From NCBI RefSeq assembly GCF_003148775.1, contig NZ_QGGW01000009.1, positions 97,972-161,971 of the forward strand: a stretch of DNA of 64,000 nucleotides. Direction: 5' to 3'. Below are positions 6,100-24,072 of this stretch, piece by piece (within the stretch, counting starts at the first letter, position 1; every line of letters starts with the position of its first letter). Origin of the DNA: Roseicyclus mahoneyensis. GTDB lineage: Bacteria > Pseudomonadota > Alphaproteobacteria > Rhodobacterales > Rhodobacteraceae. The notes below the pieces were generated by a model, which saw only the letters and a program-made list of their open reading frames with translations, searched no databases and was not told the origin of the DNA. The translations under genes were made by a program, and so were the position numbers.

Positions 6100-6750
6100 C
6101 TAGGTTCCGCAGGCGTCACGCAACTGGCGCACGGCGGCCTGCGTACCGTCGATGATGGGGATCGGGCAGCGATCCTGCAGTCGATGGGCCAATCCGGCAA
6201 GGGGTCCGCCGCCCAGAACCACGCTTTGCGCCCCATCGACGGCGCAAGCCCGGCACAGGTCCAGGATCGCCAGACCAAGAGTATCGGCCACGTCAGCGGG
6301 ATCATGCCGCAACGGGCCGGGGGGGCTCACGATCCCGACAAGTTGATCGAGCACGCCATGCTCATGCGACTTGTGATGCAAGGGCGCAGCGACCTCGGGG
6401 GCGAAGGTGACGATGGCAAAGGGGCCACCCCGGCGCCGAACCTCGGCAAAGGCGGCCTCGGCGATGCCGATAACCGGCAGATGCGCATGCGCCGCCCGGA
6501 CCTCGGGCGCGCCAGTGTCCCCGAAGGAGGCAAGCACGATCCCGTCGAAATCACCCTCCTGCTGCGCAATGGCCGCCAGCACCCCGGCCACAGCCGCCCG
6601 CCCGTCTTCCTCGGTCACGATCAAGGATGGCCCGAAGGCCGCAGGAACGGTGGTAAAGCGGTCCCCCGGGTGCGCCACGGCCTGCGCGGCGGCATTGATG
6701 CGCGCCGTCACACCGGGCGACGTGTTGGGGTTCACGATCAACAGCCGCAT
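6100..6750 (-). CDS. Aspartate/glutamate/hydantoin racemase family protein
   Basis: 216-residue member of the Asp/Glu/hydantoin racemase superfamily. It starts with the family's MRLLIVNPNTS strand. The two catalytic cysteines of hydantoin racemase appear to be replaced: the first site reads LASFGD and the second VVLGGGPLAG. Cysteine-less relatives with this pattern are common, so racemisation by the two-thiol mechanism is doubtful and the true reaction is unknown. The ATG overlaps the dctM stop by one base, so it belongs to the TRAP operon. It probably acts on the imported carboxylate or amide. Confidence 0.8.
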   Translation of the reverse strand: MRLLIVNPNTSPGVTARINAAAQAVAHPGDRFTTVPAAFGPSLIVTEEDGRAAVAGVLAAIAQQEGDFDGIVLASFGDTGAPEVRAAHAHLPVIGIAEAAFAEVRRRGGPFAIVTFAPEVAAPLHHKSHEHGVLDQLVGIVSPPGPLRHDPADVADTLGLAILDLCRACAVDGAQSVVLGGGPLAGLAHRLQDRCPIPIIDGTQAAVRQLRDACGT

Positions 6751-8036
6751 CACAAGATGACCGATGGTAGCCACAAGACGATGGCGGGGAAGAGATTGAC
6801 GAGGATCAACGCCACCAGCATCGCGCCGATGAAGGCCATGAGTGATGGAATGATCTTGGCGATGGAGATCTTGGCGATGGCGCATGTGATCAGCACGACC
6901 GAGGCCACCGGTGGCGTCTGCTGCCCGATGCCGAGGTTGATGGTCAGGATCAGGCCAAAATGCACCCGGTCGATGCCCAGTTGATCGGCCAGCGGCAGGA
7001 AGATCGGGACCAGCATCAAGATCGCGGGCGTCCCGTGGATGATCGTGCCCGCCAACAGGAAGAACACGTTGATCGCCAGCAGCACGACCCAGTAGTTGTC
7101 CGACAGGCCCAAGATCGCCTGCGCGATGGTCTGGGGGATCTGCTGGTTGGTCATGTACCAGCCCAGAAGCGTCGAGGTGGCCACGATGAACATCAGCATT
7201 GCGCTGCGCTTGCCCGCGATGCGGAAGGTATCGAGAAGATTGCCCAGCCGGATCGTGCGGTAAAGGAAGGCCGCCAGAACGATGGACCAGAAGGCCGCGA
7301 TGGCGCCCGCCTCGGTCGCGGTGAAAATGCCGCCCAGAATGCCCACAAGAATCAAGATCGGCAGAGTCAGGGGAATGGCGGCATCCTTGCCGGTTTCCAG
7401 CACGCGCTTGAGGCGGAACTCGCCCTCGGTCGGATAGCCTTTGCGGACGGAGATGATGTAGGCCGTCGCCATCAAGAGCCCGCAGACAAGGATGCCGGGC
7501 AAGATACCGGCGGCGAACAGCTCGGCGATCGAGGCGTTGGCCACATAGGCATAGAGGATCAGGTTCAGCGACGGCGGCACGATGATCGCCATCGTGGCCG
7601 AGGTCGATGTTACGGCGGCGGCAAAGGCGGCCGGGTAGCCGCGTTTCTTCATCTGCGGGATCATCACCGAGCCGATGGCGGCAGCATCCGAGGTGGCGGT
7701 GCCCGAAATCTCGGAAAAGAACAGCGATGTCAAGATGTTGACATGCGCCAACCCGCCCCGGATATGCCCGACCAGACTGGAGGCGAAGGCGATCAGCTTT
7801 TCCGCGATGCGCCCCTGATTCATCACTTCGCCCGCGATCATGAACAACAGCGCCGCGACAAGCAGGTAGTTGTTGGCGCCGCCAAACGGGATCAGGCCGA
7901 TGATTTGCGGCACGACGGCGGGATCGATGATGATGAGCGTGGCCGCCGTGACGCCCAGCACGAAGGCGATGGGCAGGCCCGCGATCAGCAAGACGACAAG
8001 AAGGATCAGGATGATCCAGCCGGGATCGAGAAACAT
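6750..8036 (-). CDS. dctM: TRAP transporter large permease (DctM)
   Basis: 428-residue, multi-helix inner-membrane subunit of a tripartite ATP-independent periplasmic transporter. Typical DctM signatures are present, including IVPPSLNLILYAYVAN and FSEISGTATSDAAAIG. It forms the Na+- or H+-driven channel together with DctQ. The start codon overlaps the dctQ stop (TGATG). The substrate cannot be read from the permease; the racemase-like gene behind it suggests a carboxylic acid, amino-acid derivative or hydantoin-like compound. Confidence 0.93.
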   Translation of the reverse strand: MFLDPGWIILILLVVLLIAGLPIAFVLGVTAATLIIIDPAVVPQIIGLIPFGGANNYLLVAALLFMIAGEVMNQGRIAEKLIAFASSLVGHIRGGLAHVNILTSLFFSEISGTATSDAAAIGSVMIPQMKKRGYPAAFAAAVTSTSATMAIIVPPSLNLILYAYVANASIAELFAAGILPGILVCGLLMATAYIISVRKGYPTEGEFRLKRVLETGKDAAIPLTLPILILVGILGGIFTATEAGAIAAFWSIVLAAFLYRTIRLGNLLDTFRIAGKRSAMLMFIVATSTLLGWYMTNQQIPQTIAQAILGLSDNYWVVLLAINVFFLLAGTIIHGTPAILMLVPIFLPLADQLGIDRVHFGLILTINLGIGQQTPPVASVVLITCAIAKISIAKIIPSLMAFIGAMLVALILVNLFPAIVLWLPSVIL

Positions 8037-8557
8037 CACGCGTCGCTTTCGGGCAAGAGGTCGTCAGGATGAACCTGCCCGGTCAGCAGACCGGCCAGAC
8101 GGGTGACACTGATGAGCGCGATCAAGGCTCCGCCGACGGGCATCGTGTAGCGAAACAGCGCCATCGGCAGGTCGACCGAGATCATCATGCGGCTGCCGAA
8201 ACTGGCCGCCGCGATACCGCCATACCAGGCAAGCAGCACACCGAACCCGGCGATCAGGATCAGGTTGCCCGCCATCACCGCGCGCTTGACGCCCGGCGGC
8301 AGGATGCGAACCACCGCATCGAACCCCAGATGTTCCGAGGTGCGGGTCAGGTAAGCGGCGCCGATGAAGGTCAGCGCGGCGAGGATATGGGCAGGCAACT
8401 CTTCCGACCAGGAGACGGAATTGTTGAACACGAAGCGGCTGACCACCGCGATGTTGAGCAGCACGAAGAGCAACCCGGCCAAGCCGATCACCGCCGCGTC
8501 CAACGCGCGCGTCAGCCAGAGATCGAGGCGGGCGATAAGGGTGGTAAGGCTGGCCAT
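8036..8557 (-). CDS. dctQ: TRAP transporter small permease (DctQ)
   Basis: 173-residue membrane protein with four predicted helices and the family motif around RFVFNNSVSWSEELPAHI. The ATG at 8557 has a GGAG ribosome site 9 bases upstream. An in-frame ATG seven codons earlier is closer to dctP but has a poorer site. It lies between dctP (20-base gap) and dctM (overlap), the usual PQM order. Confidence 0.92.
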   Translation of the reverse strand: MASLTTLIARLDLWLTRALDAAVIGLAGLLFVLLNIAVVSRFVFNNSVSWSEELPAHILAALTFIGAAYLTRTSEHLGFDAVVRILPPGVKRAVMAGNLILIAGFGVLLAWYGGIAAASFGSRMMISVDLPMALFRYTMPVGGALIALISVTRLAGLLTGQVHPDDLLPESDA

Positions 8558-8577
8558 GGCCGGGTGCTCCTGTCGCA

Positions 8578-9558
8578 TCACTCGATGCCAAGCGCCGCGC
8601 GGGTCGCTGCGATCATGTCGGCACCGATCACGTCAACGAAGGTCGGGCTTTCGTAAAGCGGTGCTGCAGCAGCCTGAAACGCGGCGAAATCGACCTCATT
8701 GATGGCGATACGGTCACCCAGCTCGGCGATCACGCGGGCATCGGTTTCCGTGCCCCAGTCAAAGGTCCAGGGCGCAAGCTCGGCCGCGACGGTCATGACG
8801 GTTTCCCGCAGGGCAGGGTCGAGCCCGTTCAAGTAGGGTTCACCGAAAACCAGAAAGGTCGGCAGGTAGACATGGTTGGACAGCGACATGTAATCCTGCA
8901 CCTCGTAGAGGCGCGCGCTTTCCACGATCTCGGCCGGATTTTCCTGCCCGTCGATCACACCCTGATCAAGCGCGGAATAGACCTCGCCAAAGGACAGCGG
9001 TGTGGCGTTCGCGCCCAACGTGTTGAACATCTCGACGCGCTGGCGGCTGGTGGGGGTGCGGATCTTGAGACCCACCAGATCGGCGGGCACCACGATGGGG
9101 CGCACGTCATTGGTGATCTGGCGGAACCCGTTGTCCCACATCGCGGCCAGCATCATGCCGGTGCCATCGAAACCCGCGGCCATCATCTCGCCCGCAGGGC
9201 TGGCCGCAAAGGTCTGGACCGCGGCGCGGTCCTCGAACAGGTAGGGAAGGTCGAAGATCGCAGTGCGCGCATTGATCTGCGCGATGGCCGAGGCCGAGAG
9301 CGAGGCGTGATGCGTACCAAGGCCAAGGCCCTGCAGCACGTCTTCCTCGGAGCCGAGCGTGTTCGACATGAAGATCTGCACGTCGATGGCGCCTTCGGTG
9401 GCTGCCTCGAGGCGGGATTCGTATTCGAGCAAGAAGACATGCGCGAACGACCCATCCGGCAGTGAGGAATTGATCTGAAGGACGGTTTGCGCCGAAGCGA
9501 CGCCCGGCAGGGCGAGGCTCGCGGCCGCGATGAAAAGCGAATTTCTCAGGAGCGTCAT
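8578..9558 (-). CDS. dctP: TRAP transporter periplasmic solute-binding protein (DctP)
   Basis: 326-residue extracytoplasmic receptor with a signal peptide ending in ASAQ near residue 23. The DctP core is evident from DLVGLKIRTPTSR, with the carboxylate-binding Arg in the conserved position, followed by SFGEVYSALDQGVIDGQENP. It captures a carboxylate-containing solute for the DctQM channel. The ATG at 9558 has an AAGGA ribosome site; the upstream in-frame extension is low-complexity and lacks a signal sequence. Two AT-rich palindromes lie just upstream and may control it. Confidence 0.93.
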   Translation of the reverse strand: MTLLRNSLFIAAASLALPGVASAQTVLQINSSLPDGSFAHVFLLEYESRLEAATEGAIDVQIFMSNTLGSEEDVLQGLGLGTHHASLSASAIAQINARTAIFDLPYLFEDRAAVQTFAASPAGEMMAAGFDGTGMMLAAMWDNGFRQITNDVRPIVVPADLVGLKIRTPTSRQRVEMFNTLGANATPLSFGEVYSALDQGVIDGQENPAEIVESARLYEVQDYMSLSNHVYLPTFLVFGEPYLNGLDPALRETVMTVAAELAPWTFDWGTETDARVIAELGDRIAINEVDFAAFQAAAAPLYESPTFVDVIGADMIAATRAALGIE

Positions 9559-9608
9559 GTCTCGATCCTTTCGAGGGGAGGCGGGGAAAAACAATGCCCA
9601 CCCATGCA

Positions 9609-9648
9609 AAAATATTTTCCGTTGCCCGCCATGATAAAAATGCATTTT
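9609..9648. promoter_or_regulatory. Pair of A/T palindromes upstream of dctP, candidate RpiR operators
   Basis: Two perfect palindromes, AAAATATTTT (9609-9618) and AAAATGCATTTT (9637-9648), stand out in otherwise GC-rich sequence. Their centres are about 29 bases apart, 50-90 bases before the dctP start. A related GAAA-N6-TTTC element sits directly upstream of the rpiR gene (10590-10603). RpiR-family proteins bind such dyads, so these are inferred operator sites; no binding is demonstrated. Confidence 0.4.
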
Positions 9649-9737
9649 CATGGCCAGCCGGCGCCAAGGATTCTCCGACGCTCAAGAAACGGGCAACAAT
9701 CGGGGGGGTCTGACCAAGCAATCCGCTCTGGACCGGG

Positions 9738-10583
9738 TCAGATCTCGTCAAGCGAATCATGGATGGCTTCGATGGCGCTCAGCCTTTCGCGTCCAGCCGG
9801 ACCCGATCTTTCGATCGCGGCGGCCGCCAGCAGACCGCAGATCGCCATGACGCCGACATGATCGAACAGGGCCCCCGCGCCGGTGGTGCTGCACGGCAGG
9901 GTCCACCTGACTGGCCCCGCACCAAGCTCGGTCAGGTCGCCGATCAGGGCCACATCCGCGCCGCAGCCCGTCACATGCCGCAGCACCTGATCGAGCTGGC
10001 GTGGCGGCCTGCGCAGGGCGAACACGATCACGCAATCGCCCGGACCGATCCCGGCAAGGCTTTCAGCCAGTGTCTCCCCGTCGCGCGGCAGGGTCGCCAC
10101 GTCGGACCGGACCTGCATCACCTGCCATGCAAGGTAGCGGGCAAAGCCCTGACCGGCCCGAAAGCCGACCACCCACAACCGGCGCGCCGCGACCATGGCC
10201 GTCACGAGGCCCGCGATCTCGGCCTCGTCCAGCGCCGCAAGGCTTTGCTCAAGGTTGCCGTGGCACTGTGCGAGGTGACGGGCCACCAGCCCTTGCGAGG
10301 GGGTTCCATCCCCCCCGACCCGGAACAGCGCAGTTCCCGCCACCTGTTCGGCCCGCACGGCTTGCCGCGCCTCTTCAAAGGACGCGTAGCCGATCTTGCG
10401 GACAAAACGGGTCACCGTGGCGTTGGACACGCCAGCAAGCTTGGCGATTTCCGTGGCGGTATATCCTGCCAACTGGCCGGGGAAATGCACGATGGCATCG
10501 GCAAGGCGCTTTTCGCTGGGATGAAATTCCGGCGTCGCCTTGCGGATGCGGGTCAGAAACGAGGTCTTTGGCGCTGGCGACAT
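9738..10583 (-). CDS. MurR/RpiR family transcriptional regulator
   Basis: 281-residue regulator with an N-terminal HTH_6 domain (YTATEIAKLAGVSNATVTRF, residues ~41-60) and a C-terminal SIS sugar/ligand-binding domain (WVVGFRAGQGFARYL ... GDCVIVFALRRPPRQ). It is encoded 179 bases upstream of dctPQM on the same strand and most likely controls that operon. SIS domains usually sense phosphosugars, but many TRAP-linked RpiR proteins respond to other metabolites, so the inducer is unknown. Confidence 0.9.
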   Translation of the reverse strand: MSPAPKTSFLTRIRKATPEFHPSEKRLADAIVHFPGQLAGYTATEIAKLAGVSNATVTRFVRKIGYASFEEARQAVRAEQVAGTALFRVGGDGTPSQGLVARHLAQCHGNLEQSLAALDEAEIAGLVTAMVAARRLWVVGFRAGQGFARYLAWQVMQVRSDVATLPRDGETLAESLAGIGPGDCVIVFALRRPPRQLDQVLRHVTGCGADVALIGDLTELGAGPVRWTLPCSTTGAGALFDHVGVMAICGLLAAAAIERSGPAGRERLSAIEAIHDSLDEI

Positions 10584-10830
10584 GGCGATGAAAATATCCT
10601 TTCGCGGCGCGAACCCGCAAGCTCTTATGCGCGTCGCGATCGGGCAGAATCGTCCCGCCGGGCCCTCCGATCATGGTCGGGCTGCCCGCTGCAGGCAGCG
10701 CTCTGTCCCCGCAGCGCTCAATTTCCAAGCACCCGATCGCGTGCAAGCCCACAAAGCCGACGATTTCCAACATCGGCCCGGCCGACATCCAAACGCTTTT
10801 GACCCATCCCCAAGCGCCATGCAGCCTGTT
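10584..10830. other. Intergenic stretch between rpiR and the guanidine riboswitch
   Basis: This part of the divergent intergenic region (rpiR leftward, guanidine operon rightward) must hold both promoters. I see the GAAA-N6-TTTC dyad at 10590-10603 beside the rpiR start but no convincing -35/-10 pair. No plausible gene occurs; the open frames here are short and unsupported. Confidence 0.5.
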
Positions 10831-10950
10831 GGTGCGCAGAGCATTTAGGGTTCCGCCCGGGTTCGGGGTCTGGTCCGAGAAATGCGGCCGCGTCGGCAAA
10901 TTCCGGCACGGTACACGGCGGGCCAAAATCCCGGGAGAGCACTGCGCATC
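10831..10950 (+). promoter_or_regulatory. Guanidine-I (ykkC) riboswitch aptamer
   Basis: The conserved blocks of the guanidine-I aptamer are all present in order: TAGGGTTCCG (10846-10855), CTGGTCCGAGA (10870-10880) and ACGGCGGGCCAAAA then TCCCGGGAGA (10915-10938). The outer P1 helix is perfect over seven pairs, TGCGCAG (10833-10839) with CTGCGCA (10942-10948), and extends to nine with a wobble. Guanidinium binding to this class turns on guanidine export or degradation genes. It lies 74 bases before the first gene of the ABC-importer/ureohydrolase operon. No U-tract follows, and small hairpins reach the Shine-Dalgarno, so control may be translational (inference). Confidence 0.95.
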
Positions 10951-11004
10951 TTGTTCGGCCGCTCCCCTCGAACGTCGCTGTCTTCGGTCGGACGTCTGCC
11001 ATCA

Positions 11005-11017
11005 TCCTGTCGGAGGA
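11005..11017 (+). promoter_or_regulatory. Possible Shine-Dalgarno-sequestering hairpin of the guanidine operon
   Basis: The Shine-Dalgarno GGAGGA at 11012-11017 can pair with TCCT at 11005-11008 (four pairs, five-base loop). It serves an unusual TTG start codon. This is a candidate expression platform for the upstream riboswitch; the stem is short and the assignment is tentative. Confidence 0.35.
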
Positions 11018-11024
11018 CCCGAAG

Positions 11025-12089
11025 TTGACGAAAACAACCCTCGCCGCGACCACCGCCCTTGCCCTGACCCTGTCCACAGGCCTTGCCACTGCGCAGGAGC
11101 GCACGGAGTTTTCCGTCGCATGGTCGATCTATGTCGGCTGGATGCCCTGGGGCTATCTGGACGAAAGCGGCATCATGGATGCTTGGGCGGAACGCTACGG
11201 CATCACCGTCGATATCGTGCAGATCAACGATTATGTGGAATCGATCAACCTTTACACAGCGGGCGAATTCGACGGGGTGTCGGCCACCAACATGGACACG
11301 CTGTCGATCCCGGCAGGATCGGGCGTGGACACCACGGCACTCATCGTCGGCGATTTCTCCAACGGCAACGACGCGGTGATCCTCAAGGGCGAGGGGACAC
11401 TGGAAAGCCTTGCGGGCATGCCCGTCAACCTCGTGGAACTGTCGGTATCTCACTACCTGCTCGCCCGTGCGCTCGACAGCGTGGGACTTGAGGAACGCGA
11501 CCTTGCGGGTGTCATCAACACCTCCGACGCCGACATGATCGCGGCCTTCGCCACCGATGACGTGCAGGCGGTCGTCACCTGGAACCCGCTGGTCTCCACC
11601 ATCGCCGAGGACCCTGCCGCCAATATCCTTTTCACCTCCGCCGACATCCCCGGCGAGATCATCGACATGATGGTGGTCAACACGGAAACGCTCGCCGCCA
11701 ACCCCGATTTCGGGCGCGCCTTGGTGGGGGCGTGGTATGAGTTGATGACGATCATGTCGTCGGACACGCCCGAAGGCGTCGCGGCGCGCACCGCCATGGC
11801 CGAGGCCTCGGGCACGGACCTTGCGGGCTATGACGCGCAACTGGCCTCCACCCAGATGTTCTGGAACCCCGCCGATGCGGTCGCCTTCGTGCAAAGTCCG
11901 GCGCTGCCGGAGACCATGGTGAGCGTGGCCGAGTTCCTGTTCGAGCGTGGCATTCTTGGCGAAGGGGCACCGAGCGCCGATTTCGTCGGTGTCGAATACC
12001 CCGGCGATGTGGTCACGGGTGATCCCGCCAATATCCGCCTGCGCTTCGATCCCAGCTTCATGCAGATGGCGGCCGACGGGGCGCTGTAA
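11025..12089 (+). CDS. ABC transporter periplasmic binding protein, NMT1/TauA type (probable guanidine)
   Basis: 354-residue secreted binding protein. A signal peptide ends at TGLATAQ (~residue 24), followed by a mature start VAWSIYVGWMPWGYLDESG. It belongs to the nitrate/sulfonate/taurine-like fold used by riboswitch-associated guanidine and urea-carboxylase-linked importers. The start is TTG at 11025, chosen because GGAGG lies about 9 bases upstream and because it gives an immediate signal peptide. It is the first gene after the guanidine-I riboswitch, 24 bases before the permease. Guanidinium as ligand is inferred from the riboswitch and the hydrolase, not from the binding pocket. Confidence 0.87.
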   Translation: MTKTTLAATTALALTLSTGLATAQERTEFSVAWSIYVGWMPWGYLDESGIMDAWAERYGITVDIVQINDYVESINLYTAGEFDGVSATNMDTLSIPAGSGVDTTALIVGDFSNGNDAVILKGEGTLESLAGMPVNLVELSVSHYLLARALDSVGLEERDLAGVINTSDADMIAAFATDDVQAVVTWNPLVSTIAEDPAANILFTSADIPGEIIDMMVVNTETLAANPDFGRALVGAWYELMTIMSSDTPEGVAARTAMAEASGTDLAGYDAQLASTQMFWNPADAVAFVQSPALPETMVSVAEFLFERGILGEGAPSADFVGVEYPGDVVTGDPANIRLRFDPSFMQMAADGAL

Positions 12090-12113
12090 CGGCAAGCGGA
12101 CGGGGTCCGGGTC

Positions 12114-12926
12114 ATGCGGCTGATCAACCGATATCCCGGCCCCGTGGGCCGCGTGGCACTGGCCGCCCTGCCCTTCGTGCTGGTGGGACTTGTCTATGCG
12201 CAAGCCTCGGCCGCGCGGCTGGCCGAGAACCCGCAGGACCGCATCCTGCCCTCCTTCGCCACCTTGGGCGGAACCGCGTGGCGGCTCTTGACCGAGGAAG
12301 ACCGGCGGTCGGGCGAGATCCTGTTCTGGGGCGATACCCTGTCCAGCCTGTCGCTTCTGGCGGCGGGCGTTGGCATCGCCGCGCTTTTGGGGCTGGTGCT
12401 GGGGGTAGCCATAGGGCTGATCCCGCTGATCCGGTCCAGCCTGCAGGGTTTCGTCGCCGTCGTCTCGATGATCCCGCCGCTGGCGGTGCTGCCGATCCTC
12501 TTTATCACGCTGGGCGTGGGCGATACCGCCAAAATTGCGCTGATCGCCATCGGCATAACGCCGTTCCTGATCCGCGACCTCACGGCGCGCACGCTGGAAT
12601 TGCCGCAAGAACAAGTGGTAAAGGCGCAGACGCTGGGCGCTTCGACGCTGGGCATAGCCCTCTCGGTCGCGCTGCCGCAGATCCTGCCGCGCCTGATCTC
12701 GGCGATACGCCTGTCGCTTGGCCCCGCATGGCTGTTCCTGATCGCCGCCGAAGCGGTCGCTTCAGACAGCGGGCTTGGCTACCGCGTGTTCCTTGTCCGC
12801 CGCTTTCTGGCGATGGACGTGATCCTGACCTATGTGGCGTGGATCACGCTGCTGGCCTTCCTGATTGACTGGGGGCTGGCGCGCCTGTCGCGCTGGCTGT
12901 TCCCGTGGGCGGAGGCGCGGGGATGA
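12114..12926 (+). CDS. ABC transporter permease, TauC/SsuC type (probable guanidine)
   Basis: 270-residue inner-membrane permease with about six helices and a BPD_transp_1 domain. The EAA-like coupling loop is recognisable around QEQVVKAQTLGASTLG. It is the homodimeric channel for the binding protein encoded upstream. Its stop overlaps the ATPase start as ATGA. Relatives sit in guanidine-riboswitch operons of proteobacteria and cyanobacteria. Confidence 0.9.
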   Translation: MRLINRYPGPVGRVALAALPFVLVGLVYAQASAARLAENPQDRILPSFATLGGTAWRLLTEEDRRSGEILFWGDTLSSLSLLAAGVGIAALLGLVLGVAIGLIPLIRSSLQGFVAVVSMIPPLAVLPILFITLGVGDTAKIALIAIGITPFLIRDLTARTLELPQEQVVKAQTLGASTLGIALSVALPQILPRLISAIRLSLGPAWLFLIAAEAVASDSGLGYRVFLVRRFLAMDVILTYVAWITLLAFLIDWGLARLSRWLFPWAEARG

Positions 12927-13705
12927 CGCTGGTTCAGGTCGACGGCATCTTTCAAAGCTACGGCCCGCGCCCAATCTTGGAGCGGGTGTCGCTGTCGGTG
13001 GGTGAAGGCGAATTCATCTCGATCGTGGGCGCGTCCGGCTGCGGGAAATCCACCTTCCTGCGGCTGCTCTTGGATCAGGAACGCCCCACGCGCGGCCAGA
13101 TCACGGTCGACGGCCAGCCGTTGAAGGGAGAGCCAGACCGCACGCGCGGCATCGTGTTCCAGCGTTATTCAGTGTTCCCCCACCTGACCGTCCGCGACAA
13201 TATCGTGGCCGCCGAAGGCTTGTCGCGCCCGCTGGGCCGCTTGTTCGGCCCCGCCCGCCGCGCCGCGCGCGCCCGCGCCGATGCCACGCTCGACCGGATC
13301 GGGCTGGCGCATGTGGCCCACCAATATCCCGCCGCGCTGTCAGGCGGCATGCAACAGCGCCTTGCCATCGCACAGGCGCTGGCGGCCAAGCCCCGTATCT
13401 TGCTGCTCGATGAACCCTTCGGCGCGCTCGACCCCGGCACGCGCGAGCAGATGCACGCTTTTCTGACCGATCTGCGCCAGGAAACCCCCATGACCGTCTT
13501 CATGGTCACCCACGACCTGCGCGAGGCGTTCAAGCTGGGCGACCGGGTCATCGTCTTCGACAAGACCCGCTGGGACCCCCATGACCCCGCCGCCTATGGC
13601 GCGACGATCACCTATGATTTTGACGCCCGCAACGGCGGCATCCCCTATCAACTGAAAGAGGACCAAGATGGATCATCTCACCCCGCGGCGCAGCCGGCCG
13701 CATAG
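12923..13705 (+). CDS. ABC transporter ATP-binding protein (probable guanidine)
   Basis: 260-residue ATPase with Walker A GASGCGKST (~residue 33), signature LSGGMQQR, Walker B ILLLDEPFGALD and the H-loop MVTHD. It has a longer C-terminal tail (TRWDPHDPAAYGATITYDFD) than nitrate/taurine ATPases. ATG at 12923 overlaps the permease stop. Its 3' end overlaps the ureohydrolase start by 38 bases, which ties the hydrolase to the importer. Confidence 0.92.
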   Translation: MTLVQVDGIFQSYGPRPILERVSLSVGEGEFISIVGASGCGKSTFLRLLLDQERPTRGQITVDGQPLKGEPDRTRGIVFQRYSVFPHLTVRDNIVAAEGLSRPLGRLFGPARRAARARADATLDRIGLAHVAHQYPAALSGGMQQRLAIAQALAAKPRILLLDEPFGALDPGTREQMHAFLTDLRQETPMTVFMVTHDLREAFKLGDRVIVFDKTRWDPHDPAAYGATITYDFDARNGGIPYQLKEDQDGSSHPAAQPAA

Positions 13706-14912
13706 CCCGCGCCTTGCGCCGCGCGACGACCGGCGCGCGCATCACCCCGACCTGACGAAGCTGCGCGGCTGGCGCGCGATGCAGGCTGAGGCCGACATTC
13801 CCGGTGACCGCTGGGACGAAGAACGCCGCTGGGCGCTGCGCATGGGGCTGACCGGCGCCGACAGCATCGAGGACAAGTCGATCCCCACCTTCGCGCGCGG
13901 CGAGCTGCCCCATTACGCGGGCATCAACACCTTCCTCAAGGCGCCCTACGCCGAGGATGTGACCGAGGTGAAGCATTACGACGCCACCGTCCTTGGCATC
14001 CCCTTTGACGGCGGCACCACCTACCGCCCTGGAACGCGCTTTGGCCCGCAAGGCTTGCGCAAGATCAGCGCGCTTTACACGCCCTACAACTATGAGCTGG
14101 CCGTCGACCTGCGCGAACAGATGACGCTCTGCGATGCGGGCGATGTGTTCACCATCCCCGCGAACCTCGAAAAGAGCTTCGACCAGATCAGCCGTGCAGT
14201 CAGCCACGTGTTCAGCTCCGGCAGCTTCCCGATCATGATCGGGGGCGATCATTCGATCGGGTTCCCTTGCGTGCGCGGCATCGCGGAATGCACCTCCAAG
14301 AAAATCGGGATCGTGCATTTCGACCGCCACGCCGACATTCAGGAAAAAGACCTCGACGAGCGGATGCACACGACGCCGTGGTTCCACTCTACCCTCCTGC
14401 CCAATGTGCCGGCCAAGAACCTCGTGCAGGTGGGCATCGGCGGCTGGCAGGTCCCGCGCGAGGCGGTGAAGGTCGCGCGCGAGCGGGAAACCAACATCAT
14501 CACCATGTCCGACATGGAGAAGATGGGCATCGACAAGACCGCCGAGATGGCGCTGGAAATGGCATGGGATGGCGTCGACATGGTCTACATGTCCTTTGAC
14601 ATCGACAGCATCGATTGCGGCTTTGTCCCCGGCACCGGCTGGCCCGAACCCGGCGGCTTCCTGCCGCGCGAGGCGTTGGCGCTGGCGTCCAAAGTGGCCG
14701 CCGAAGGGCTCTGCGGCATGGAACTGGTCGAGGTCAGCCCGCCCTATGACACCTCCGACATCACGGCGCTGATGGGCACGCGGGTGATCGTGGATGTGCT
14801 GGGCTCGATGGTGGCGGCAGGCAAGATGGGCGCGCACAAGCGCCATATCGACAAGCCCGTGACCATCCCGCATGGCGAGTTCACCGGGCGGAGGTGGTCC
14901 AATGCCCCATGA
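13668..14912 (+). CDS. gdmH: Ureohydrolase family protein, probable Ni-dependent guanidine hydrolase (GdmH-like)
   Basis: 414-residue arginase/agmatinase-fold enzyme. Binuclear-metal ligands are in place: His195 in GGDHS, Asp219/His221/Asp223 in DRHAD, Asp311 and Asp313 in SFDIDSID. An N-terminal extension of about 110 residues containing YAGINTFLKAPY precedes the catalytic core. Agmatinases are usually ~300-320 residues, while the cyanobacterial guanidine hydrolase GdmH is ~390 with such an extension. GdmH splits guanidine to urea and ammonia and needs nickel. The riboswitch and importer upstream strongly favour this role over agmatinase. The ATG has GAGG 7 bases upstream. No urease or urea carboxylase is in the window. 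Confidence 0.85.
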   Translation: MDHLTPRRSRPHSPRLAPRDDRRAHHPDLTKLRGWRAMQAEADIPGDRWDEERRWALRMGLTGADSIEDKSIPTFARGELPHYAGINTFLKAPYAEDVTEVKHYDATVLGIPFDGGTTYRPGTRFGPQGLRKISALYTPYNYELAVDLREQMTLCDAGDVFTIPANLEKSFDQISRAVSHVFSSGSFPIMIGGDHSIGFPCVRGIAECTSKKIGIVHFDRHADIQEKDLDERMHTTPWFHSTLLPNVPAKNLVQVGIGGWQVPREAVKVARERETNIITMSDMEKMGIDKTAEMALEMAWDGVDMVYMSFDIDSIDCGFVPGTGWPEPGGFLPREALALASKVAAEGLCGMELVEVSPPYDTSDITALMGTRVIVDVLGSMVAAGKMGAHKRHIDKPVTIPHGEFTGRRWSNAP

Positions 14913-15345
14913 TCACCACCACCACGGGCACGGGCACCACCATCACCCGCATGATCACAACCATGCACACGGTCCCGCCGATCACCTCCATTCGCACCTG
15001 ACGCCCGAGGATAGCGCCGCCGATCTGCAGATCCTGACCGCGCAATTCATCGACGGTTTCGTGACCGCCGCCGACAAGGCCGCCTATCTGCAGCTCGCGG
15101 GCGTTCCGCTGGAACGGCCGGGCAAGGCCGGGGCCAGCACGCTGAAACTGGTGGATGTGGAGTTGAAAACCGAATGGCAGGTCGGCACTGCTTCGCCGTC
15201 CTTTGGCACGCGGGAACTCAGCTACCTGCCCTTTCCGGGGTCGATGATCCGGGAACGCACCAACATGGCATTGGTCTACGTCTCGATGGACGAAAAGGAC
15301 AGGCTCGACATCCGCGATTTTCTGGCGACGCGCGACCTGCCCTGA
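14902..15345 (+). CDS. His-rich small protein, candidate nickel-handling partner of the guanidine hydrolase
   Basis: 147-residue protein whose first 32 residues contain 17 histidines, a composition seen in nickel-storing proteins such as HypB and UreE tails. A compact ~110-residue domain of unknown type follows (ELKTEWQVGTASPSFG ... YVSMDEKDRLDIRDFLATRD). ATG at 14902 has GGAGG 8 bases upstream and overlaps the hydrolase stop by 11 bases, indicating coupled translation. Cyanobacterial guanidine hydrolase requires the HypA/HypB-like GdmA/GdmB for nickel loading. No such genes are nearby, so this protein may fill that role (inference). I do not recognise the C-terminal domain. Confidence 0.8.
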   Translation: MPHDHHHHGHGHHHHPHDHNHAHGPADHLHSHLTPEDSAADLQILTAQFIDGFVTAADKAAYLQLAGVPLERPGKAGASTLKLVDVELKTEWQVGTASPSFGTRELSYLPFPGSMIRERTNMALVYVSMDEKDRLDIRDFLATRDLP

Positions 15346-16186: not shown

Positions 16187-17200
16187 TCAGCGGACAAGGA
16201 CAAGGTCTGCGGGATCGATCTGCAGGTCGACGCTATCGCCTGCGGTCAGGCGCGGCTCGGAAATCGGGCGCGAGACGAGGAACTCAAGGTTTTCGTCCTG
16301 CACGACATATTCCATCCGGCTGCCCAGATAGCTGGCAGACCGGATCGTGGCGATGCCACCCTTTGCCAGCCGGATGCGTTCTGGCCGGATCGTGGCGGTG
16401 ACGATGCCATCCGCGGCCCTGACCGGCAGGGCCAGATGGGCGGCATGGAAGGTTCCAGAGGAAACCTTTCCCTCGATCAGGTTCGCATCGCCGATGAAAT
16501 CGGCAACAAAGGACGATGCAGGCTGTTCATAAAGCTCCGCCGGCGTGCCGATCTGGGCGATCTGGCCCATCTTCATCACCACGATGCGGTCGGAGACAGC
16601 CAGCGCTTCCTCCTGATCATGGGTGACATAGACGGCGGTCAGGCCGAAGCGCTGCTGCAACTCGCGGATCTCCGCCCGGACCTTGCGGCGCAGTTTGGCA
16701 TCGACGTTGGAGAGCGGCTCGTCGAACAGAAGAACATCGGGCTGCTGCACGATGGCACGCGCGACCGCGACCCGCTGCTGCTGGCCGCCCGACAATTCCG
16801 AGGGCAAGCGCGCCTCGTAGCCCGCCAGCCCCACCTGATCGAGGATGGCGCGCGCGCGGTCGCGCGCCTCGGCCTTGGGAACGCCACGGATCGTGGGGCC
16901 GTAGGACACGTTGTCGAGCACACTCATATGCGGAAACAGCGCGTAGGATTGGAACACCATGCCGACGTTGCGTTCCGACGCAGGGTCGCGGCTGACGTCG
17001 CGGCCTGCGATCTTGACCTGCCCCTCGGTCGGCAGCTCCAACCCCGCGATCAGGCGCAGCGACGTAGTCTTGCCGCAGCCCGAGGGACCAAGAAAGGTCA
17101 CAAGCTCCCCCTTGGCGATAGAAAAGCTCATCTTGTCGACCGCCACGGCACTGCCGTAGCGCTTGAGCACATTCACGAATTCGATCGCCGTTTCCGTCAT
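16187..17200 (-). CDS. ABC transporter ATP-binding protein, FbpC/PotA/PhnT type
   Basis: 337-residue ATPase with Walker A GPSGCGKTT, signature LSGGQQQR, Walker B VLLFDEPLSNVD, H-loop YVTHD and a C-terminal TOBE-type regulatory domain (ATIRPERIRL onward). This architecture is shared by iron, polyamine, sugar and 2-aminoethylphosphonate importers. It lies 10 bases after the permease gene. The neighbouring phosphatase and phn genes favour an organophosphorus substrate over iron, but the sequence alone does not decide. Confidence 0.9.
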   Translation of the reverse strand: MTETAIEFVNVLKRYGSAVAVDKMSFSIAKGELVTFLGPSGCGKTTSLRLIAGLELPTEGQVKIAGRDVSRDPASERNVGMVFQSYALFPHMSVLDNVSYGPTIRGVPKAEARDRARAILDQVGLAGYEARLPSELSGGQQQRVAVARAIVQQPDVLLFDEPLSNVDAKLRRKVRAEIRELQQRFGLTAVYVTHDQEEALAVSDRIVVMKMGQIAQIGTPAELYEQPASSFVADFIGDANLIEGKVSSGTFHAAHLALPVRAADGIVTATIRPERIRLAKGGIATIRSASYLGSRMEYVVQDENLEFLVSRPISEPRLTAGDSVDLQIDPADLVLVR

Positions 17201-17210
17201 GCCCTGTCCC

Positions 17211-19397
17211 TTATTCCGCGGGGTCCGCCGCCGGGCGGCCCTGCAATTCCTGTCTGCGCCCCAGCCTGCGCGTGCCCACCGCCAACTGGATCAGCGCGAC
17301 GCAGCCGATCATCACGATCATCAGCACCGCCGAATAGGCGATGGCGAGCGCGTATTCCCCCGCCTCGACCCTGCCCATGATATAGGCCGTCGCCATGTTG
17401 TGCCGCGCCGAGACAAGGAAGATCACGGCAGAGACCGCCGTCATCGCCGTGACGAAGGAATAGACCAGCGCCGTGAAAACCGCAGGCCGGATCAGGGGCA
17501 GGACCACGCGGCGCAGCGTCGTGGCCCCGCCCGCGCCCATGGTCTGCGACGCCTCCTCCATCGACTTGTCGATCTGGGCCAGCGCCGCCAGTCCCGCCCG
17601 CATGCCCACCGGCATGTTGCGAAAGACAAAACAGATGATGAGGATGGCCGCCGTCCCGGTGATGTCGACCGGCGGCACGTTGAAAGCCGCGACATAGGAC
17701 ACACCCACCACGGTGCCGGGAACCGCAAAGGACAACATCGTGCCGAATTCAAAGGCACGGCGACCGGCAAAATCCTGCCGCGCGACCAGCCATGCGGTCA
17801 GGATGCCCACCAGCGTCGTCAAGGGCGCAGCCAGCCCTGCGACCCAGAGCGTGGTAATCATCGAATCCCAAGCCGAGCCATAAAGCTGAAGGCCGTTCTC
17901 GGCGATCTCGAAACGGAAGGCGGTGACCAGATGGCTCAGCGTCGGCGTCAGGTCCCAGCGCCCGATATCGGTGACGAAGCCGCCTGCCGCGATGATGATG
18001 TAGACCGCCAGCGTGAACAGGACCCAAGGCAGCACCACCGCAAACACCGCGATCTTGAGGATTGGCGGCAGCGGTGCGGTCAGGCCAGCGTCGGATTTGC
18101 CGGTGACCGTGACGTAGCTTTTCTTGCCCATCCAGCGCATCTGCAGCCAGAACGCGATCAGCGTCAGCGCCAGCAGGATCATCGCAAGTGTCGCAGCGTT
18201 GCCCAGATCGTAGCGCGCGCCGACCACGGCGAAGAAGATCTTGACCGACAGCACCTCGTAGCCACCACCCAGCACGATCGGGTTGCCAAAATCCGCAAGG
18301 CTTTCGATGAAGGCCAGCAGAAAGGCCGCCGCTAGACCAGGACGCAACAGTGGCCATGTGATCTTGCGGAAGGTGGTCATCGACCGCGCGCCAAGAGTGC
18401 GCGAAGCTTCCTCAAGCGTGGGATTGATCGCCTCGAGCGTGGACAGCAGCACAAGAAAGGTCACCGGCGCAAAGGCCAGAACCTGCGCGATCAAGATGCC
18501 GGGAAGGCCGTAGATCCAGCGGGTTGGCCGCACGTCCATCAGGTCGGCGACGAAGCTGGTGACCAGCCCGGTACGCCCGAAGAGCAAGATGATGGCGACG
18601 CCCACGACGAAGGGCGGGGTGATGATCGGCAGGATGGAAATGGCGCGAAGCGCCCGCTTCATCCGGAAATCGGTGCGGTTGACCAAAAGTGCCAGCGCAA
18701 GGCCCAGCGCGGTCGCAAACGAGGCCGACAGCACGCCCAGAACCACGGTGTTCACGACCACGCCACAGCGCCCCGCGCCTGCGAAACAGGCCACACCCCA
18801 AAGATCAGGCGCCGAGATCCGCGCCCAGAAGGTGCCCAGCGCCAGCGCGCCCGTCGGATCAACAAAAGCAGCAATGCCAAGGCGCAGGATGGGGAAAAAG
18901 ACAAACAGCGTCAGCAACGCGACGATGGCCGTGATGCAGAAAGCCGGGAAGCGCTCACCCCGGCAGAAGCCGCGCGCGGCGAAAAGGTCGGACAACAGGC
19001 CCGTCAGCGCGATCCCGGCCAGAAACCCGCCCCAGCCTAGACCAGTCTGCCCGTCGGCCGCGCGTGGGAAGGCGGACCCGACCCAATCGGCGGAGGGGCC
19101 GCGCAAGCCAACGGCAAAACCTTGCCAGATCAGCAGCGCAAACGCCCCCAGCGTCAGGCCCAGCGCAAGATTGGACCTTTGCCAGCCGCGCGTCAGCGCG
19201 GCGATGGACAGGGCCGATGTCACCGCGATCATCGGCCAGAGCCAGCCGCGTCCAGCCAGCGCCTCGGTCAGGGCCGAAGCGGCAGGGCCGGCAAAAAGGT
19301 TGTTACCCTTGTACCAAGGCACAAGACCCAGCGCTGCGGCCAAAAGACCGAGCCAGGCAAGCCCGGCTCGGTCCGATGTCAGGGAAAAGCGACCCAC
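17211..19397 (-). CDS. ABC transporter permease with two fused BPD domains (FbpB/ThiP-like)
   Basis: About 728 residues containing two consecutive permease domains, each with an EAA loop (LEEASRTLGA and MEEASQTMGAGG), so one polypeptide supplies both halves of the channel. An extra hydrophobic N-terminal region of ~150 residues precedes the first domain. The start is uncertain: GTG at 19397 directly follows the binding-protein stop but lacks a good Shine-Dalgarno, and the frame stays open into the preceding gene. It fits with the ATPase and binding protein on either side. Confidence 0.88.
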   Translation of the reverse strand: MGRFSLTSDRAGLAWLGLLAAALGLVPWYKGNNLFAGPAASALTEALAGRGWLWPMIAVTSALSIAALTRGWQRSNLALGLTLGAFALLIWQGFAVGLRGPSADWVGSAFPRAADGQTGLGWGGFLAGIALTGLLSDLFAARGFCRGERFPAFCITAIVALLTLFVFFPILRLGIAAFVDPTGALALGTFWARISAPDLWGVACFAGAGRCGVVVNTVVLGVLSASFATALGLALALLVNRTDFRMKRALRAISILPIITPPFVVGVAIILLFGRTGLVTSFVADLMDVRPTRWIYGLPGILIAQVLAFAPVTFLVLLSTLEAINPTLEEASRTLGARSMTTFRKITWPLLRPGLAAAFLLAFIESLADFGNPIVLGGGYEVLSVKIFFAVVGARYDLGNAATLAMILLALTLIAFWLQMRWMGKKSYVTVTGKSDAGLTAPLPPILKIAVFAVVLPWVLFTLAVYIIIAAGGFVTDIGRWDLTPTLSHLVTAFRFEIAENGLQLYGSAWDSMITTLWVAGLAAPLTTLVGILTAWLVARQDFAGRRAFEFGTMLSFAVPGTVVGVSYVAAFNVPPVDITGTAAILIICFVFRNMPVGMRAGLAALAQIDKSMEEASQTMGAGGATTLRRVVLPLIRPAVFTALVYSFVTAMTAVSAVIFLVSARHNMATAYIMGRVEAGEYALAIAYSAVLMIVMIGCVALIQLAVGTRRLGRRQELQGRPAADPAE

Positions 19398-19413
19398 GGG
19401 GATGCGCTGCCGG

Positions 19414-20433
19414 TTACTGCGGCAGCGACCCGATCTCGGCATCCCAGCGCTGCAGCAGGCGGGTGCGTTCCTCGCTCGACCCGTAGAGGGCAAAGTCGTA
19501 GTCGATCAGGTTAACATCCTCCAGCCGCGGGGCGGCATCGGGCGTGACCGAATTGACGTTCGACGGGATCTGGAAGCTGTTCGCCGTTGCGCCCAGTTCC
19601 TGCGCCGCAGGCGTCAGCGCCCAGTCGTAGAAAGCGCGCGCGGCATCCGGGTTCGGACCGCCCGCAATGATCGACATGGACCCCACCTCGTAGCCCGTGC
19701 CCTCGCAGGGGGCGACGGTCACGATGGGCGCGCCGGTCACGGTCTGGGCTACGGCGTCATGCATGAACACGATGCCGATGGCCGTTTCGCCGGTCGCCGC
19801 CGCCCGGATCGGGGCGGAGCCCGACTGGGTATACTGGCTGATGTTGCCATGAAGCTGGGTCAGATATTCGAAAGCCTCTTCCTCACCCATCAGCTGCACC
19901 AGCGTGGCCAGCATGGTGTAGGAGGTGCCCGAGGAGTTCGGGTTCGCTACCTGCACGTCATCCTCGAACCGCGCGTCCAGCAGGTCGGCCCAGCAGGCGG
20001 GCGGGTTCTCGGTCACGAGATCGGTGTTGTAGCCAAAGCCAAGGCCACCGGCGTAGATGCCGACGGTGCGGTAGCCCGAGGTTTCCGCCTGCTGCAGCGC
20101 CCAAGGCTGCAGTTCGGCCAGCATGTCCGAGCGGTATTCCTCGGTCAGCCCCTCTTGCGCAGCCTGCAGATGGGGGTCGCCGGTGCCGCCCCACCACACG
20201 TCGCCGCGCGGCTGGCCGCTTTCGGCAGCGATCTGGGCATAGGTCTCGCCCGAGGACCGGCGGGTCATCAGGACGTTGATCCCGGTTTCGCGCTGGAACG
20301 CCTCGGACATGGCACGGCACCATTCCTCCTGCACCGAGCAGTAGAGCACAAGCTCGTTGCCCTGCGCGCTGGCCGGAACGGCCGGTGCCAGCATGATGGC
20401 CGCCGCTGCCAGCAAAACGGATCTTTTGGTCAT
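19414..20433 (-). CDS. ABC transporter substrate-binding protein, Fe3+/2-aminoethylphosphonate type
   Basis: 339-residue periplasmic protein with a signal peptide ending PASAQ (~residue 24) and the family segments SSGETYAQIAAESG, GDVWWGGTGDPH and NPNSSGTSYT. The fold is shared by FbpA iron and PhnS-like phosphonate receptors. I do not see the adjacent Tyr-Tyr pair that coordinates iron in FbpA, which weakens an iron role. First gene of a four-gene operon ending in a phosphatase; no Pho box was found in its upstream 130 bases. Confidence 0.88.
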   Translation of the reverse strand: MTKRSVLLAAAAIMLAPAVPASAQGNELVLYCSVQEEWCRAMSEAFQRETGINVLMTRRSSGETYAQIAAESGQPRGDVWWGGTGDPHLQAAQEGLTEEYRSDMLAELQPWALQQAETSGYRTVGIYAGGLGFGYNTDLVTENPPACWADLLDARFEDDVQVANPNSSGTSYTMLATLVQLMGEEEAFEYLTQLHGNISQYTQSGSAPIRAAATGETAIGIVFMHDAVAQTVTGAPIVTVAPCEGTGYEVGSMSIIAGGPNPDAARAFYDWALTPAAQELGATANSFQIPSNVNSVTPDAAPRLEDVNLIDYDFALYGSSEERTRLLQRWDAEIGSLPQ

Positions 20434-20565
20434 CTTTGTCTCTCTCCCTTTGGGTGTGTGGCGGTGCGTTGACCGTCCGGTGCAGGTTCGCCCGCATCCC
20501 GGCAGACGTTTGCCGATCCTTGGGCGGTCGTAAAGATATTTACGCAGCGAAGGGCCCTTGCTGCC

Positions 20566-21378
20566 TCAGATGATGGCATGGCGTACCCTCGCCGAGACCC
20601 ATTCGCTCAGCACGACAGTGGCAAGGATCAGCAACAAGATCACTGAGACCTGGCTCCAGGCCAGCGTGTTGAGCGAGGCCTCCAGCTTGAGCCCGATGCC
20701 CCCCGCGCCCACAAGCCCCAAGATCGCGCTTTCGCGGATGTTGATGTCCCATCGAAACACGGTGATGCCCCAGAAGGCCGGCATGATCTGCGGTACGATC
20801 CCGTAAGACAGCACCTGCGCGCCGCTGGCCCCGGTGGCCTCGATCGCCTCGATCTGACTGGCGTCCGTCTCCTCGATCGCCTCGTAGAGCAGCTTGCCGA
20901 TGAACCCGATGGAGCGCAGCGCGATGGCCACGATCCCCGCCAGCAGGCCCGGCCCGATGATCGCAACCAGCAAAAGCGCCCAGATCAGCGAGTTGATCGA
21001 CCGCGAGGCGACGATGATGAAAAGCGCGACGGGCCGCAGGAAAAGGGCTGATGGCGTCGTGTTGCGCGCAGCAAGAAAGGCCACCGGCACCGCCATGATG
21101 ACCCCGCCCAGCGTGCCCAGCGTCGCCATGTTGAGCGTGTCCCACAGCGGCACCCACAACTCGTTCAGGTAGGACCAGCGCGGCGGCACCATGCGTCCGC
21201 CGATATCGGCGGCTTGCCGGGGCGCATCGTAGACGAAGGCCCAAATGGTGCGCTCTGTCATGATCTGCCAGCACCAGACGAACAGCGCCACCAGAGCCAG
21301 CCAGCCGCCCCAGAGCAACAGGCGCCCGCGCGTCGTGCGGTAGGACCAGACCTGGCTGTAATGCGTGATCTCGGTCAT
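20566..21378 (-). CDS. phnE: Phosphonate ABC transporter permease PhnE (second copy)
   Basis: 270-residue permease with about six helices and the PhnE-typical stretch NIRESAILGLVGAGGIGLKLE. Its start overlaps the stop of the first phnE (ATGA), and the two are only moderately similar, as expected for a heterodimeric channel (PhnE1/PhnE2). It is the last gene of the phnDCEE unit. Phosphonate, phosphite or phosphate esters are possible substrates. Confidence 0.92.
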   Translation of the reverse strand: MTEITHYSQVWSYRTTRGRLLLWGGWLALVALFVWCWQIMTERTIWAFVYDAPRQAADIGGRMVPPRWSYLNELWVPLWDTLNMATLGTLGGVIMAVPVAFLAARNTTPSALFLRPVALFIIVASRSINSLIWALLLVAIIGPGLLAGIVAIALRSIGFIGKLLYEAIEETDASQIEAIEATGASGAQVLSYGIVPQIMPAFWGITVFRWDINIRESAILGLVGAGGIGLKLEASLNTLAWSQVSVILLLILATVVLSEWVSARVRHAII

Positions 21379-22181
21379 TGCAGGAACTTCCGCAGGTAGC
21401 TGGAACTGTATTCGGCGACCATCACGATGGCGATGATGATGAGCAGGATCGCCCCCGCACTGTCATATTCGTAGCGGTCGATGGCGGTATTGAGCGTCGC
21501 CCCGATCCCGCCCGCGCCGACGATACCGATCACGGCGCTTTCGCGGAAATTGATGTCGAGCCGATAGAGCGACAGGCCGATCAGGCGCGGCATCACTTGC
21601 GGCTGCACGGCGTAATTCAGCAATTGCCCCCAAGATGCGCCGGTGGCGCGCACCGCCTCGGCCTGCGCCTCGTCGATTTCCTCGATGTCGTCGGCCAGCA
21701 GTTTGGCGATGAAGCCGATGGTGGCGAAGGACAGCGTCAGGAAACCGGCGAATGTGCCGAAGCCGAACATCGCCACGAAGAAGATCGCAATGATGACTTC
21801 TTGCAATGCCCGGCTGACGGCGATGATCCCGCGGCAGATGTAGTAGATCCAGCGCGGTGCGATATTGCGCGCGGCCCCGATGCCGATCGGGATGGAGATG
21901 GCCACGCCCACCACCGTCGAGGTCAGCGTCATGGTCAGGCTTTCGATCAGCCCGCGACTGATGTCACGCCAGCGCGTATCGAAATCAGGCTGCAGGAAGC
22001 CCAAGACGAAGCGCTGCCCGCGCTCCAGCCCGGTATAGACACGCGCCCAGTTCACCTCGACCGATCCGATGGCGAGGATCAGGTAGACCACGATGCCGAT
22101 CTGGAACGCGATGCGCCAGCGCCGATCCCTGATGATCTGCGGTGGGCGGCGCCAGGTCGTGGGATAGTCGGGCGCGCTCAT
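21375..22181 (-). CDS. phnE: Phosphonate ABC transporter permease PhnE (first copy)
   Basis: 268-residue permease of the PhnE family, with [21 protein letters not shown] as its conserved segment and about six hydrophobic helices. It follows phnC with a 4-base overlap. Pairs with the next permease to form the channel for the PhnD-bound ligand. Confidence 0.92.
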
Positions 22182-22999
22182 CTGGCCAGCGCCGCCATGC
22201 GGTCACGGGCGTCGGCTTCGGCGCGGGTCTGTTCCTCGTCGCCACGGCGCATCTCGTTCCAGTCTTCCGCGCCGTAGATCGCGGTCAGCGCCTCATGCGT
22301 CAGCTGTTCGGGCGTGCCGTCGAAGACCACGCGGCCCGCCCGCAACCCCACGATGCGCTGCATGAATTGCTGCGCCAAAGGCACGTCATGGATGTTGACG
22401 ATGGCGGGGAGGCCGCGCTCGGCGCAGATTTCGGTCAGCAGGCGCATGATCTGGCGGCTGGTCTTGGGGTCGAGGCTGGCGGTCGGTTCATCGACCAGCA
22501 GCAGTTCGGGGTCCTGCGCAAGCGCGCGCGCGATGCCGACCCGCTGGCGCTGCCCGCCCGACAGCGCGTCGGCGCGCTTGTCGGCCTGTTCCATCAGCCC
22601 CACCCGGTCCAGAAGCTGATAGGCGCGCTGGATGTCGGCGGGGGGGTATTTACGCAGGAAACTGCGCCAGAAGGGCACGTAGCCCAGCCGGCCGGACAGG
22701 ACGTTTTCCATCACGGTCAGCCGTTCGACCAGCGCATATTCCTGAAAGATCATCCCGATGCGGCGGCGCTGGCGGCGCAGGTCGGCCTTGCCCAGCCCCA
22801 CGAGATCCACGTCTCCCAGAAGCACCTTGCCCCCGCTTGGCTCCACCAGCCGGTTGATGCAACGGATCAGCGTCGACTTGCCCGCGCCCGACGGCCCGAT
22901 CAAGCCCATGATCTGCCCCTTGGGAACTGTCAGCGACACGTCGCGCAGCGCAGCGTCGCCGGTCTTGTAGGTCTTTGTCAGGCCTTCGAGAAAAAGCAT
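22178..22999 (-). CDS. phnC: Phosphonate ABC transporter ATP-binding protein
   Basis: 273-residue ATPase with Walker [10 protein letters not shown], signature LSGGQRQR, Walker [13 protein letters not shown] and NIHDVPLA as the H-loop. NIHD instead of VTHD is characteristic of PhnC. I chose ATG at 22999 ([14 protein letters not shown]) with a GAGGG upstream; a GTG ten codons earlier is also open. It is separated from phnD by a strong hairpin and linked to phnE by overlap. Confidence 0.93.
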
Positions 23000-23026
23000 C
23001 CGGGGGCACCCTCTCGTGCAAAAACC

Positions 23027-23051: not shown

Positions 23052-23074
23052 ACGTCATCGTGAAAGATAAGGGC

Positions 23075-24025: not shown

Positions 24026-24072
24026 GATGATCCCCGGAGTTGATATGTTCCGGAGCGCGATATGTTCCGTGC

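Follow-up and report, generated by a model that had tools for sequence, protein, structure and literature searches.

A guanidine-I riboswitch operon in Roseicyclus mahoneyensis with a predicted guanidinase and an orphan histidine-rich protein that may supply its nickel

Genes for the nickel chaperones HypA and HypB are often found in guanidinase operons, according to the available text of PMC8390497. The MefH/DmgH enzymes likewise relied on co-expressed HypA and HypB, and a hupE gene adjoins their genes, as far as described in the text seen of PMC11399263. How a guanidinase is supplied with nickel where HypA and HypB are lacking is presented in print as an open question (PMC11410670, in the sections available). 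Here, we analyzed a stretch of 64,000 nucleotides from Roseicyclus mahoneyensis (contig NZ_QGGW01000009.1, positions 97,972 to 161,971 of the forward strand), hereafter the window, in which five genes follow a guanidine-I aptamer on the same strand, encoding a binding protein, a permease, an ATPase, GdmH and a protein that we call ORF5. The features of the locus, in window coordinates, are the following:

10834–10939, plus strand: Guanidine-I (ykkC) riboswitch aptamer (RF00442, 74.9 bits; covariation at 18 of 27 pairs in 37 sequences)
10940–11024, plus strand: leader from aptamer to start codon (hairpin 10952–10961/10985–10994; Shine-Dalgarno-like GGAGG at 11012)
11025–12089, plus strand: ABC substrate-binding protein, predicted guanidine binder (TIGR03427, 521 bits; TTG start)
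12114–12926, plus strand: ABC permease (PF00528)
12905–13705, plus strand: ABC ATPase (PF00005; the reading frame overlaps those of the permease and gdmH)
13668–14912, plus strand: gdmH, predicted nickel-dependent guanidine hydrolase (longest reading frame; translation may begin at a more internal start codon)
14902–15345, plus strand: ORF5, histidine-rich tail and orphan domain, 147 amino acids, proposed nickel-loading factor (start overlapping the gdmH stop, GGAGG upstream)

The riboswitch, the importer and the guanidinase are of known kind, and ORF5 is the new part of the locus. Taken as a whole, the operon is probably one for guanidine import and hydrolysis by a GdmH-type nickel enzyme, in which ORF5 would load the nickel instead of HypA and HypB.

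The original prediction had read positions 10831–10950 as a guanidine-I riboswitch with a perfect P1 helix, and had proposed a covariance-model search as a check. In that search, the Rfam Guanidine-I model RF00442 matched 10834–10939 of the plus strand over its full length (model positions 1–107), at 74.9 bits (gathering score 63; E = 1.7e-11), so that the call was borne out and its interval proved correct to within 3 and 11 bases. The description of P1 stood for the rest of the helix, but not for the outermost pair of the first Rfam helix, which is non-standard here. This was the only Rfam match above gathering in the 64-kb window, and a permissive Rfam scan of 10600–11300 with E values up to 10 returned no other RNA family; moreover, the 4.03-Mb host genome holds a single Guanidine-I match, the one in the window.

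Covariation was evaluated in an alignment of 37 leaders, comprising the window, 30 of the 80 closest loci and six genomes of the same class. In this set, which was selected by motif match, compensatory changes were found at 18 of 27 consensus pairs, the Guanidine-I helices thus being maintained by compensatory change. Paired cells amounted to 93.9%, compared with 78.1% in column shuffles, none of 500 of which reached as high a value, and sliding the partners by 1–3 columns lowered pairing to 31–57%. Pairs changed on both sides numbered 18, against 14.3 in shuffles (4 of 500 as high). More weight was given to the slid-partner control, because kinship among the rows can by itself beat shuffles. 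The aptamer is therefore a genuine riboswitch, and an ordinary one for its class, in which binding of guanidinium permits expression. Control of the operon by guanidinium may be expected on this ground.

Less can be said of the expression platform. The leader hairpin formed by 10952–10961 with 10985–10994 is common to several near relatives, and an intrinsic terminator, sought in the leader, gave no match. A CTCC or CTCTC motif occurs within the first 45 linker bases in 48 of 68 leaders, against 22.3 expected, and could mask the ribosome site. Pairing between the linker and the aptamer core reached 6 bp in the window, which was not significant, as 37.5% of shuffles matched it; across the 68 leaders, such pairing had p ≤ 0.05 in 14, where about three would be expected (mean 6.06 vs. 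5.26 bp). With low confidence, translational control is likelier than termination for the window leader.

An importer-hydrolase operon had been predicted downstream of the aptamer, and the sequence supports this, with ABC transporter genes at 11025–13705 followed by a guanidinase gene of the GdmH type. A binding protein, a permease and an ATPase lie together beside the guanidinase under the switch, an arrangement that suggests a guanidine importer. The binding protein starts with TTG in the window and with ATG at the same place in the relatives L002, L004 and L007; among solved structures, its sole relative found was a taurine binder (27.6 bits). Also correct was the warning that homology would misname these genes: in the public record of a relative, they are called “putative urea ABC transporter” and “agmatinase family protein”, and automatic naming of the enzyme as an agmatinase, or of the importer as a urea transporter, is likely wrong. 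Elsewhere in the window, ABC transporter genes that by eye resemble the phosphonate type lie near the guanidine operon on the minus strand (16187–24130), and genes that by eye resemble a TRAP transporter, also on the minus strand (6750–10583) and accompanied by a regulator gene of the RpiR family (PF01418) just upstream of the riboswitch, probably form a separate operon.

The window hydrolase is much closer to the solved guanidinases than to other ureohydrolases, scoring 545 bits to Synechocystis GdmH (7esr/7oi1) and 536 bits to the Nitrospira inopinata guanidinase (9fek), against 172 bits for the next-best solved family. For the N. inopinata enzyme, T105, H222, W313 and E344 have been described together with the metal ligands H182, D207, H209, D211, D299 and D301 (PMC11410670, in the text available), and all ten residues have identical equivalents in window GdmH, with one fixed numbering offset. 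In the 414-amino-acid reading frame, these are T118, W325, H234 and E355, and the ligands H195, D219, H221, D223, D311 and D313. Judged by these matches, the window “agmatinase” is a guanidinase of the GdmH type, presumably a nickel-using one. A urease alpha gene is present elsewhere in the host genome, and the reading frames a few kilobases from it were, by eye, taken to be UreE, UreF and UreG; with such urease genes at hand, the urea could be used further.

We then focused on ORF5, a gene on which the original prediction was silent. Its likeliest start is the ATG at 14902, which overlaps the gdmH stop codon and has GGAGG upstream. The protein contains 17 histidines, all within the first 33 residues, and no cysteine. 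Histidine-rich segments occur in many HypB and UreE proteins. The remaining part, about 110 residues long, forms a conserved domain in which F, D, L, G, P, Y and R occupy invariant positions; as none of its invariant positions is a histidine or cysteine, this domain is not an obvious metal site. In the tail, one histidine is invariant over an alignment of 97 sequences, the median number of histidines per tail is 14 among 74 of 78 close relatives and 15.5 in 44 wider loci, and a GHN motif is present in 37 of these 44. Some tails are poor in histidine, with 1 (L099), 3 (L096), 4 (L095) and 6 (L101).

No Pfam or NCBIfam family matched ORF5. Fifteen divergent sequences of the domain gave no Pfam match with E values up to 1, and two NCBIfam matches only, both at chance level. 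The HypA domain (PF01155) was absent from ORF5 and from the same 15 sequences (E up to 1), no Pfam or NCBIfam match to the cobW/HypB GTPase domain was found in ORF5, and no Pfam match to the UreE domain profile. A database search yielded 1413 relatives; among the 120 of these that were listed, none had a Pfam domain, and those with names were called only “hypothetical” or “uncharacterized”. AlphaFold predicts the domain confidently (mean pLDDT 89.1), and none of the solved structures with which it was compared was clearly alike; the domain had no PDB match. None of the titles listed in a literature search names a protein of the ORF5 kind.

To what ORF5 is tied became clear from its genomic neighborhood. 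Out of 417 GdmH matches, we took the best 80 as the closest loci, which are labelled as Rhodobacterales genera or unclassified relatives; in 78 of them, ORF5 comes after gdmH in the same orientation, no more than about 450 bases away, and the contigs of the two misses, L047 and L049, stop 0 and 62 bases past the GdmH match. Counting genomes with E values of 1e-90 or better as GdmH-positive, 11 of 385 class genomes and 7 of 398 phylum genomes qualified, giving 16 distinct genomes with the host included; those from the phylum sample all belong to the class of the window. ORF5 adjoins gdmH in all 16, with identity to window ORF5 going down to 23%, and a profile search agreed. Among alphaproteobacterial plasmids, ORF5 lies beside gdmH in all three records examined, of seven found; a tblastn search of plasmids with the ORF5 domain picked up two records but not the S. 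fredii relative (26.5% identity). Altogether, the 80 closest loci, 16 class and phylum genomes and three plasmid records, minus two duplicates (G609 is the same locus as L004, and G703 as L026), make 97 distinct GdmH-selected loci, and ORF5 follows gdmH in 95 of these, the other two being cut by contig ends.

In the reverse test, the ORF5 profile matched 13 of 385 genomes, namely every one of the 11 GdmH genomes plus two more (Fisher 1.3e-19, with kinship ignored). In one of the two (G377, locus L129), the ORF5 domain is almost whole (profile positions 4–102 of 105) and gdmH is absent; at L129 8260–8909, a fragment of a substrate-binding protein runs at once into the ORF5 domain, as if one internal deletion had removed permease, ATPase and gdmH, or the assembly were wrong there. 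The other (G137, locus L130) has no gdmH and a partial ORF5 (positions 23–102) with one stop and a BLAST piece of 64 residues, lying amid an unrelated neighborhood at 7157–7348. Moreover, among 297 genomes from the order to which G544 belongs, Rhizobiales-like by its Mesorhizobium matches, ORF5 was found in 30, of which 28 loci were newly taken and two came from earlier sets, and gdmH lies upstream on the same strand in every one. The same holds for all 44 loci of the wider set (in which L105 and L106 repeat L004 and L026).

Other parts of the operon are less constant. No Guanidine-I match above gathering was found at L097, L098 or L101, although gdmH and ORF5 are present there; L102 has switch, gdmH and ORF5 and no match to the binding protein or permease; and L030 has gdmH and ORF5 and no importer matches. 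These five loci keep the pair of gdmH and ORF5 and so give no support to the idea that ORF5 depends on switch or importer; it goes with the enzyme instead. At four actinobacterial GdmH records, ORF5 gave no match (L108, L110 and L113) or one with an E value of only 0.36 (L109). In the sampled Alphaproteobacteria, ORF5 represents an orphan family whose genes keep company with that of guanidinase.

As for known nickel proteins, HypA was not found in the host genome, and HypB gave matches below cut-off only, the best at the place read as UreG. HypA is present in 11 of 44 ORF5 genomes (5/16 and 6/28) and HypB, above cut-off, in 9 of 44; in every case, these genes are far from gdmH, being either on a different contig or separated from it by more than 250 kb. 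A HupE/UreJ-like gene occurs within about 200 bases after ORF5 in at least 10 of the 44 wider loci, a lower bound because the query was a piece of 87 residues; the ten cases are spread over four families, with six in a single genus, and membership in the HupE/UreJ family was checked on two loci. No such gene lies within reach of ORF5 at the 80 closest loci or in the window. One protein, P0149 (279 amino acids), continues beyond ORF5 with an incomplete HupE/UreJ domain; we did not retain it as an ORF5-HupE fusion, its HupE part being truncated and HupE forming a separate match behind ORF5 in the ten loci.

UreG-like GTPases (TIGR00073, below cut-off) are encoded no more than 7 kb from gdmH in 6 of 44 genomes (G108, G339, G821, G881, G906 and G976), which lowers the chances of a factor working without an NTPase; it is possible that a urease GTPase is borrowed for GdmH maturation. 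In the same six Alphaproteobacteria, urease and guanidinase genes are neighbors. Rfam matches to 5_ureB_sRNA were also obtained at L097 (1365–1649, minus strand, 104.7 bits) and at L108 (11088–11377, minus strand, 92.3 bits), the latter opposite an annotated urease alpha gene, and these may reflect conserved urease coding sequence, not RNA.

Based on these results, the operon might work as follows. Binding of guanidinium to the aptamer would permit expression, importer and guanidinase would be made, and guanidine would be brought in and hydrolysed to urea and ammonia. Translation of ORF5 would begin where its start codon overlaps the stop codon of gdmH. Ni2+ would be gathered by the histidine-rich tail of ORF5 and handed over to apo-GdmH, to which the conserved domain would bind, and the urea would pass to a urease whose genes lie at another place in the genome. 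On the strength of its composition and gene context, ORF5 is likely a nickel-loading factor replacing HypA and HypB. More tentatively, and with somewhat less than even confidence, we propose that it represents a new, NTPase-free class of nickel-insertion protein for guanidinase, in which a histidine-rich tail and a novel docking domain do the job of HypA and the GTPase HypB of cyanobacterial operons.

Several observations count against a nickel loader, namely that some ORF5 proteins are nearly without the histidine tail (L099, L096 and L095), that the conserved domain offers no obvious metal site, that HupE neighbors are confined to a few families, that three actinobacterial GdmH loci gave no ORF5 match, that incomplete ORF5 copies occur in two genomes without GdmH, and that strict co-location would suit a subunit or a regulator equally well. 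Absence of HypA and HypB is also no proof of a substitute, because the comammox guanidinase is reported to have no known chaperone (PMC11410670). ORF5 could instead belong to the guanidinase itself as a subunit, either structural or regulatory, comparable to MefH-beta of metformin hydrolase, with a tail that is incidental or tunes stability. Its near one-to-one occurrence with gdmH, a well-conserved domain that has no invariant metal-binding residues, and members in which the tail is almost missing would all fit such a subunit. However, recombinant N. inopinata guanidinase was active as a single protein, even if nickel-under-loaded (PMC11410670, as far as available). Moreover, the tail is long and histidine-rich in most members, by the medians given above for 74 and 44 sequences, and HupE/UreJ genes adjoin in 10 of 44 loci, so that we regard a subunit as rather unlikely. 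A role as a nickel store or buffer, shielding the cell during uptake for guanidinase and urease and not inserting the metal, for which Hpn-type proteins offer the comparison, would agree with the same tail and HupE/UreJ neighbors and with the presence of a urease alpha gene in the host. Nevertheless, ORF5 goes with gdmH in our samples, and its histidine-poor members retain domain and position, for which a store would have no need; we consider such a role improbable.

As a further alternative, the genes could in principle serve urea salvage, with a transporter that carries urea. The binding protein does score 521 bits, with a cut-off of 334, to NCBIfam TIGR03427, which bears the name “putative urea ABC transporter substrate-binding protein”, and urea is the expected product of the enzyme. 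That name is the title of a model and no test of substrate, however, and the transporter genes lie directly under a guanidine-I aptamer beside a guanidinase; in addition, the Synechocystis operon is described as including a guanidine-importing ABC transporter (PMC11410670 and PMC12186494, in the parts available). Urea transport is accordingly a very improbable explanation.

With its 1413 relatives, a family that travels with the enzyme offers a direct, single-gene handle on the nickel question. If nickel loading by ORF5 is true, it would show that maturation of a nickel-dependent ureohydrolase can be left to a protein of its own, one without kinship to HypA and HypB, and ORF5 could provide a compact co-expression helper for guanidine-degrading biotechnology.

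Compared with known systems, the window aptamer resembles the Guanidine-I class (ykkC subtype 1, RF00442) in its full-length match, its covarying helices and its place upstream of guanidine genes, and no difference from the class was found in the aptamer itself; the leader behind it has no intrinsic-terminator match. With the Synechocystis guanidinase operon, the locus shares a riboswitch, GdmH and an ABC importer, whereas the cyanobacterial operon carries ghaA and ghaB of the hypA/hypB type (PMC8390497 and PMC12930504, in the text available) and the window has the unrelated, histidine-rich ORF5 after gdmH. The N. inopinata locus likewise combines a Guanidine-I switch with a guanidinase and has no HypA/HypB, but it is described with an APC permease and, in the text available (PMC11410670), with no identified nickel-loading protein, where the window has an ABC importer and ORF5. 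The MefH/DmgH operons also encode a nickel ureohydrolase, as is predicted for ORF5 loci, with maturation genes and hupE nearby (PMC11399263, as far as available); they have hypA/hypB and two enzyme subunits, in contrast to one enzyme gene and ORF5. In comparison with HypA, HypB/cobW and UreE, finally, ORF5 has no Pfam or NCBIfam match above cut-off; like the HypA/HypB and UreE chaperones, however, it is encoded beside a predicted nickel enzyme and carries a histidine-rich segment.
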